A stretch of 64,000 bases of DNA from Salinibacterium sp. dk2585 (GTDB lineage: Bacteria; Actinomycetota; Actinomycetes; Actinomycetales; Microbacteriaceae), in NCBI RefSeq assembly GCF_008001035.1, contig NZ_CP042856.1:744001-808000 (forward strand), given 5' to 3'. Made by a program: the position numbers and the translations under genes. Positions 46,879-48,046 of this stretch are shown here, piece by piece (the stretch's first letter is position 1; each line of letters opens with the position of its first letter). The notes beneath the pieces are model-generated. The model was given only the letters and a program-made list of their open reading frames with translations. It searched no databases and was not told the origin of the DNA.

Positions 46879-47901
46879 TCACGCCCCTCTCCCTCCCACG
46901 CCCCCTCGCGCCCGCCCCGCCGCTGAGATCCGAGTAGTGCATCTTCCCGCTGCCTGCGAAGGTGCACTACTCGGATCTCTCCCCCGCCACCCGCCATGGA
47001 CGAGTCGGCGGCGCAGGTCTGACAACAGGGTCGAGCTGTTGCGCAGGTGCGAGCGGCTGGCTCGCAGGTGTGCCCAACCGTGGTTCTCGAGTCGCGGAAC
47101 GCGGGCGACATCCTTCTCCCACTGGGCCTCATCCGTGTAGTGGTGGCGCCCCTCATAGTCGAGGGTCACACGAAACTGCGGCCATGAGAGGTCAGGCTGG
47201 GCGAGAAAGCGGCCAGTCGCCGTGTAGAGCGGCAGGTTCACCGCTGGCTGGGGCAGTCCCGCTGCCAGCACCCGCATGCGCATGATCGACTCCGGTCGTG
47301 AATCTGCACGGTCGCTGACGAGAGGCAGGCATCGGGAGATCGCAGGCCTCCCGCGGCGCCCATGCCACCGGTCGAATGCACGCTCCAGGGTCGAGCGCGC
47401 CATCCGATTCGCGCCGCGATGTTTGTGCCAGATGAGGTAGTCGCCAACGGCGACCAGATCCTCATCGTTCAGCAGGGACGCCAGGTCGCACCATGTTCGC
47501 GCGCGCGACGTGACCCGTAGTCCTTCGAGCTCAACGATGTCGGTCGGGTCAATTGTGATGCGATGCGAGTGGATGCCCCGGCCTGCGGGCACGGCGATTC
47601 CGCTCGGCACACCCACATCGAGGGGGCGCGAATCGGTCTCGAGGAACGAAGGAAGCGGCATCCCCCAGAGGGCCGCTGCGGTGCCGTGAGAGAAGAACGC
47701 GCGGGGAGACATGACGGCCCCGTAGGTGGCCGCCCTTCCGAGAATCGTGGTGCCTGTTCCTCGGACCGCTCGGGCGCCCCGGTGTGGTGACTCCAGGTCG
47801 GCGCCGAGCATGCGACCGCGTCCGAGTCCCGCGGCTGCGCCCGAGCGCGTGTGAAACGGAGCGGCCACAAGGTCTTCGGGGAGAGGAATTCGAGGCTGCA
47901 C
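46879..47901 (-). CDS. AbiEi-like N-terminus with C-terminal DUF559/Vsr-like nuclease domain
   Basis: The 340-residue protein has an N-terminal region (about 1-130) resembling AbiEi-type antitoxin winged-helix proteins, a middle helical part and a C-terminal domain (about 220-300). The C-terminal domain has PD-(D/E)XK-like features: [21 protein letters not shown] followed by a Gln/Lys/Asp region and GWAHLRAS. These fit the DUF559/very-short-patch-repair nuclease fold. No toxin partner (AbiEii-type) is next to it. The last about 25 residues read through the palindrome at 46925-46979, so the natural C-terminus may be shorter. The GTG start has GAGGATG upstream. Function unknown; DNA cleavage is inferred. 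Confidence 0.7.
46925..46979. repeat. 55-base palindromic element, copy A
   Basis: GAGATCCGAGTAGTGCA (46925-46941) and its exact complement (46963-46979) flank a 21-base loop, inside which CTTC/GAAG extends pairing. It lies within the 3' end of the AbiEi/DUF559 gene. A related copy of the same length is at 47992-48046, just upstream of the same gene. Confidence 0.75.
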
Positions 47902-47991
47902 AGCGGCATCCTCACGCAGTCAGCAGCTTCTCTCCCAGCTCCTCGCGGCCGCCGTGCACAACTCCTCGCAGCACCCGCGTGTGGACAAGTT

Positions 47992-48046
47992 GAGATCCGA
48001 CTAGTGAAGCTTCGAGACCTCTAGGAAGGTGCACAACTCGGATTTC
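47992..48046. repeat. 55-base palindromic element, copy B (diverged)
   Basis: The left arm starts GAGATCCGACTAGTG and the right arm ends GGTGCACAACTCGGATTTC; most positions match copy A, and the length is identical. The arms pair imperfectly. An 11-base fragment of the same right arm (GTGCACAACTC) is repeated at 47954-47964. The 170-base gap 47902-48071 holds only this repeat material. Confidence 0.65.

Follow-up and report, generated by a model that had tools for sequence, protein, structure and literature searches.

AbiEi-like nuclease genes and their matching palindromes may form a REP/RAYT-like system in actinobacteria

Introduction

Why should a gene for a putative nuclease lie between two related palindromes? 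The arrangement occurs in the window, by which we mean the whole 64-kb stretch of DNA analysed here, part of a 2.84 Mb genome in one contig (G000), and an initial annotation likened it to REP/RAYT systems. In PMC2817692 and PMC8266576 the spread of REP palindromes is linked with a single class of enzymes, the HUH-type RAYTs. If a non-homologous nuclease truly carried the same genomic signature, the question of what a REP system needs could be tested by comparison, actinobacteria would have a REP-like system of their own, and the many gene-palindrome pairs found in nature could serve to decipher a DNA-recognition code. Among the matches listed in a search of titles and abstract openings, mostly outside subscription journals, we found no literature tying DUF559 or AbiEi-nuclease genes to dispersed palindromes.

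Results

A nuclease gene enclosed by two palindromes

The gene lies between trpS and an exonuclease-III-like gene, xth (names given here from the Pfam matches tRNA-synt_1b and Exo_endo_phos), and the features of the locus are as follows.

46879 to 47901, minus strand: gene for a protein with an AbiEi-like region and a DUF559/Vsr-type nuclease domain (profile matches, conserved residues)
46879 to 47901, minus strand, residues 64-150 matched: AbiEi-like region (PADLOC AbiEi, E 1.7e-7)
46879 to 47901, minus strand, C-terminal, about residues 200-300: DUF559/MTES_1575 Vsr-type nuclease domain (Pfam, family profile)
46925 to 46979, no strand: palindrome copy A, built 22-11-22, on the downstream side of the gene
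47954 to 47964, plus strand: single half-site fragment GTGCACAACTC between copy B and the gene (exact string search)
47992 to 48046, no strand: palindrome copy B, diverged, on the upstream side of the gene
46921 to 48056, no strand: stretch replaced in the sister species G001 by a 49% identical gene with other palindromes, between flanks 92-94% identical

The initial annotation had described two related 55-base palindromes around the gene, the first with perfect 17-bp arms inside the gene's 3' end, and an extra 11-base fragment at 47954; all of these are real. Copy A has 55 bases, with perfect outer arms of 17 bp, 22-bp arms containing one mismatch and a loop of 11 bases, and folds as single-stranded DNA with z = -9.86 (200 shuffles); copy B, equal in length and diverged, folds with z = -2.08, a level reached by 3 of 200 shuffles. 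The fragment is identical to the right half-site of copy B, and these are the only two places in the 64-kb window where the 11-mer occurs. Copy A falls inside the reading frame because the window gene extends further downstream than is usual among homologues: its product has 340 residues, whereas the median over 112 loci is 310, and about the last 30 residues are encoded through copy A. Across the whole genome the 17-base arm is found exactly in copy A only. With up to three mismatches it is found at 15 places. The arms of A and B account for four of these, and the remaining 11 look like chance matches, because a backward control gives 10. A query with the palindrome family additionally found a degraded third copy at G000:C1:200272.

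The encoded protein joins an AbiEi-like region to a nuclease domain. Among PADLOC AbiEi profiles, the best match to residues 64-150 has an E of 1.7e-7, and the profile seen most often is found in 31 of 50 family members; the Pfam AbiEi models match 4 and 3 of the 50, the window protein not among them. At E 0.01, Pfam MTES_1575 is found in 36 of the 50 members and DUF559 in 22, the window protein itself matching MTES_1575 alone and weakly (E 0.008, below the model cut-off). Searched against the PDB, the family profile gives weak matches to 3hrl, an endonuclease-like protein (E 0.00066), and to 3r3p, a 'mobile intron protein' (E 0.0019) that we take to be I-Bth0305I of the EDxHD homing endonuclease family. 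Four residues are invariant in the 50 sequences (D154, E204, R208 and G251) and four nearly so (D237, E248, D264 and R267), a pattern that would fit a Vsr/DUF559-type site; single-sequence structure prediction of the window protein reached a pLDDT of 31.6. Homologues were found at E 1e-5 in 44 of 59 genomes, a set made up of that of the window and 58 relatives. Judging from named relatives, the window's genome is probably that of a Micrococcales actinobacterium. A scan of a genome collection with the window protein returned a single distant locus, probably because its patterns were drawn from poorly conserved stretches.

Two known systems were rejected on gene content. The four nearest neighbours of the window gene, two per side, match Pfam GNAT acetyltransferase, tRNA-synt_1b, Exo_endo_phos and BrkB, and none of them matches an AbiEii toxin model at E 0.001; the lack of a toxin partner noted by the initial annotation is borne out at this range, and an ordinary AbiE system is rejected. 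PF01797, the Y1 transposase domain of RAYTs, had no match at E 0.001 in 12 genomes, in a search whose control detected 5 of 14 known genomes. We reject a true RAYT on this ground, and because PF01797 is absent from the 12 genomes the system would work like a RAYT system without being one.

Many of the genes have a matching pair of palindromes of their own

We compared the flanks of homologues in a discovery set (114 loci from the first homologue searches and the 80 best of a longer list; 112 usable) and in a replication set of 65 loci (64 usable), fetched afterwards and not used to form the idea, from the best matches of a 299-genome search in which 93 genomes matched at E 1e-45. The initial scan took in 34 of 114 loci. 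In a first flank test, 73 of 114 loci scored above the 99th percentile set by 600 cross-locus pairs, and a first palindrome count at score 13 gave 57 on the left, 61 on the right and 37 on both sides of the 114, compared to 11 of 228 outer windows. The final count used reading-frame bounds and a palindrome score of 12, fixed beforehand, and the 99th percentile of 800 cross-locus pairs. On this basis, upstream and downstream flanks match at 81/112 discovery and 39/64 replication loci. Palindromes lie upstream at 63/112 and 40/64 loci, downstream at 73/112 and 40/64, and on both sides at 50/112 and 30/64, compared to 2/112 and 2/64 inside the gene, 11/221 and 4/128 in outer windows, and 6/224 and 0/128 in Markov-shuffled flanks (discovery and replication, respectively). 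The flanking palindrome pair is a family trait: homologues often have one palindrome sequence on both flanks of a gene and another sequence at the next gene.

The palindromes have a median length of 60 bp in the discovery set and 61 bp in the replication set, and are built of two inverted half-sites of about 22-24 bp around a centre of near-constant length. The downstream palindrome starts at a median of +9 (discovery) or -3.5 (replication) relative to the stop codon. The match test was failed by 31/112 discovery and 25/64 replication loci; these counts of matches may be low, because some negative loci have other repeat layouts. The top cross-locus score in the replication set was 57, so some replication loci share one palindrome family. 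An Rfam search of six loci gave two weak microRNA look-alikes, both scoring far below the gathering threshold and neither of them located at the window gene.

Other repeat layouts were seen around several homologues, some distant ones carrying several palindromes per side. Six distant homologues (L111, L116, L120, L121, L123 and L126) have a common GTGATCATGCA-like motif, mostly as two direct repeats per side whose orientation is reversed on the other flank, in the manner of terminal inverted repeats. A row of repeated units per side, again inverted across the gene, is found at L082:1045-1348 and 2468-2838. At L011 and L112, which had failed the palindrome criterion, GCGCTACA-like half-sites are repeated in the right-hand flanks, that is, upstream of these minus-strand genes.

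Solo copies are dispersed between genes

When a joined query of 14 palindromes was searched against 13 genomes it matched 12, the unmatched genome (G006) owning none of the 14, and each family was confined to its own genome or genus among the matches listed. At least 9 of the 14 families (L012, L013, L019, L023, L028, L041, L057, L065 and L074) have a copy away from the gene; for L010, L015, L016 and L032 there was none among the matches listed in the 13 genomes. By hand count, the L065 family has at least 25 sites in genome G030 and the L019 family at least 21 in G025, two of them beside the gene in each case, and for the L013 family the counts are at least 11 in G000 and at least 15 in G001. 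Several families are thus dispersed, and their solo copies are intergenic: of 55 from three families, gene-flanking copies left out, 53 lie wholly and the other 2 partly between genes as called by a simple codon-usage gene caller, in surroundings that are 83-90% coding. These copies favour gene 3' ends, their neighbours being convergent in 24 cases, codirectional in 29 and divergent in 2.

Seven matches came from plasmid and phage collections, and we examined five. Palindromes lie on both sides of the DUF559 gene WP_170181047.1 of Tsukamurella tyrosinosolvens, of WP_054009319.1 of Arthrobacter sp. ERGS1:01 (annotated hypothetical) and of the homologue on plasmid 2 of Arthrobacter sp. StoSoilB13, and on one side only of that on its plasmid 1. 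Searched against 72,556 plasmid records, the three two-sided families each match solely their own organism's records, at 20, 10 and 7 places, respectively (E 0.01; a single palindrome may count on both strands). The fifth, L323 (MT837503.1), is a 6.7-kb phage-collection scaffold from human feces, with a palindrome on just one side of its homologue; its record is marked unverified and the scaffold may be bacterial. A phage origin is rejected, as three queries found no relative in viral contigs and this scaffold was the sole phage-collection match. A separate short repeat, TTTCCCAATTCAGGA, tandem and inverted at L177:5898-5934 and 7498-7578, has many matches in G000; its core is absent from the eight homologue loci checked.

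Sites are occupied in some sister species and empty in others

At the window site, G002, G003 and G004 have no insert and the trpS and xth genes are adjacent; no palindrome was seen by eye in the printed gaps. Where precisely the window unit was inserted is not readable from the sister species because the trpS-xth gaps are too diverged. The window's own palindrome family consists of A, B and the one degraded copy in G000 and of six solo copies in G001, with no match in G002-G004. None of these six adjoins any of the five homologues found in G001, so they look orphaned, judging from their positions. The window alone would not show the system, because its own genome has almost no solo copies of this family.

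Turnover between G000 and G001 was followed in two syntenic stretches, chosen because they hold several solo copies. Across six sites, three copies are shared, one is a half-copy (by eye) and two are present in one species only, with no clear target-site duplication visible at these presence/absence sites. In the two related genomes of L038 and L041, one neighbour is shared but adjoins the homologue at its opposite ends, with the break at the palindrome, as if the unit had been inverted between its palindromes.

Gene and palindrome change together at fixed loci

The gene diverges faster than both of its neighbours at five orthologous loci, which were picked and not randomly drawn. In amino-acid identity, the gene is at 73% against 96 and 92% for its neighbours in L013/L189, 65% against 91 and 88% in L023/L048, 73% against 93 and 88% in L029/L035, 56% against 91 and 80% in L059/L069, and 49% against 97.6% (xth) and 97.9% (trpS) at the window site in G000/G001. 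These loci point to vertical inheritance of the gene.

The palindrome changes along with the gene. At one locus in G001, G003 and G004, drifted palindromes still align, with scores of 21, 17 and 14 that were reached by 0, 1 and 4 of 150 other palindrome pairs; the L009 and L014 palindromes do not align, their score being reached by 31/150 other pairs. Among 3655 pairs of palindrome-bearing loci, a score of at least 20 occurs only in the three pairs with the top protein identity (0.74, 0.64 and 0.60), and pairs at 0.50-0.59 identity all score below 20. We compared 4 same-palindrome and 19 different-palindrome pairs for a protein region that tracks the palindrome and none stood out, all regions falling together.

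Two families combine conserved arms with a variable centre: copies agree at 91% over the outer 44 positions but at only 48% over the central 12 in the G030 family, and at 93% and only 44% in the G025 family. This is not general, because the L013 family shows the reverse (81% and 89%, respectively). Spacers of REPINs are described as less conserved than their ends (PMC3116915). The conserved arms and variable centre of the G030 and G025 families fit old selected sites at least as well as recent copying. Paired arm changes number 18 in the G030 family (shuffle mean 11.3; 11/2000 shuffles reach 18), 21 in the L013 family (mean 12.1; 0/2000 reach 21) and 4 in the G025 family (mean 7.8; 1968/2000 reach 4); they exceed the shuffles in the G030 and L013 families but not in the G025 family. 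Counted by shuffles that ignore relatedness, they lend weak support alone to co-change.

Discussion

We consider it probable that the gene and its palindromes belong together as a unit of a REP/RAYT-like system whose enzyme is an unrelated nuclease. This reading, first put forward by the initial annotation, is supported by the link of palindromes to DUF559-type genes (matching flanks at 81/112 and 39/64 loci), by a copy number that differs by family (at least 25 and at least 21 sites in two genomes), and by sister species without copies (at 2 of 6 sites, and at trpS-xth in G002-G004). Recognition, cutting and dispersal of the palindrome would all be the work of the protein, binding being the safer step of this proposal and dispersal by the nuclease the less safe one. 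Half-sites of 22-24 bp, close to the 23-bp sites of AbiEi, together with the RAYT-like features, suggest that the AbiEi-like part binds and the nuclease acts. By analogy with AbiEi antitoxins on their two inverted sites, the AbiEi-like part would bind both half-sites; the Vsr-type nuclease may then nick or cut the bound palindrome, as a double strand or as an exposed hairpin, and repair or copying would seed and homogenise palindromes elsewhere. The gene would mostly stay at one locus and be inherited vertically, like RAYT genes.

The main alternative, though unlikely, is that the protein is an AbiEi-type autoregulator, for which the upstream palindrome is the operator and the other copies are regulon or chromosome-organising sites, the nuclease having another role, e.g. 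defence. AbiEi is described as binding two 23-bp inverted sites spaced 3 bp apart (23-3-23) and thereby repressing its own promoter (PMC3985639). The upstream palindrome ends a median of 76 or 61 bp ahead of the start codon (two locus sets), and conserved arms around a variable centre, as in two of three families, are expected of binding sites. However, solo copies seldom lie between divergent genes (2 of 55, compared to 24 between convergent ones), the downstream copy is unexplained by simple autoregulation, and sister species differ in the presence of a copy at 2 of 6 sites. The REP/RAYT-like reading leaves room for the upstream copy to serve in autoregulation as well.

Less likely again is a homing-type selfish gene whose targets are the solo palindromes and whose insertion duplicated the palindrome of its own site. 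The profile match to 3r3p, taken to be I-Bth0305I, would suit such a gene, as would an insert absent from three sister species and a neighbouring gene that switches ends of the unit between L038 and L041. Yet the two largest families have one known flanked gene each against at least 23 and at least 19 other copies, the orthologous loci indicate vertical inheritance, and the empty trpS-xth gaps show no palindrome to the eye as printed. That the palindromes are host-maintained hairpins of an ordinary kind (terminators or 3'-end structures) and the gene a bystander is very improbable: the preference of solo copies for gene 3' ends and the good folding of copy A agree with it, but terminators need neither the same sequence on both sides of a gene nor a different one at the next, a gene's own other flank is matched better than the flanks of other loci, and families are confined to the gene's genome or genus among the matches listed.

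A wider proposal, to which we give a little less than even credence, is that the REP/RAYT-like units described here are a second, independent class of enzyme-driven mobile palindromes, in which an AbiEi-like DNA-binding protein has joined a homing-type nuclease and its operator palindrome is now a miniature mobile element spreading through actinobacterial genomes, with specificity re-evolving quickly at fixed loci. Nature may have invented the same arrangement twice.

Among known systems, EDxHD homing endonucleases resemble the family in the profile match to 3r3p (presumably I-Bth0305I), but the gene here is free-standing between trpS and xth, and no palindrome appears in the printed empty gaps. 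MTES_1575/DUF559 proteins share the domain, their Pfam models matching 36/50 and 22/50 members at E 0.01; the domain is described as fused to HEPN and wHTH domains, and the available excerpt of that description mentions no palindromes (PMC3710099). With AbiE type IV toxin-antitoxin systems the family has in common an AbiEi-like region and palindromic sites with half-sites of about 23 bp (PMC3985639), but it differs in the lack of AbiEii within two genes of the window gene, in the fused nuclease, and in sites that flank both sides and are dispersed. From REP/RAYT systems it differs in palindromes of about 55-65 bp and in a Vsr/DUF559-like nuclease with an AbiEi-like part. No GTAG head was found at the palindrome base in the three sequences searched (it is absent from those of G030 and L013, and in copy A GTAG lies inside the arm), and a GTGG head, judged by eye only, was not seen. 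Among the matches listed, families here reach at most about 25 sites, whereas REP families reach several hundred, although some of those are also small (PMC2817692, Table 1). The likeness to RAYTs as described by Nunvar and colleagues lies in two flanking palindromes, dispersed extragenic and genome-specific copies, co-change of gene and palindrome, a gene that evolves faster at fixed loci, and palindromicity that is kept (PMC2817692).
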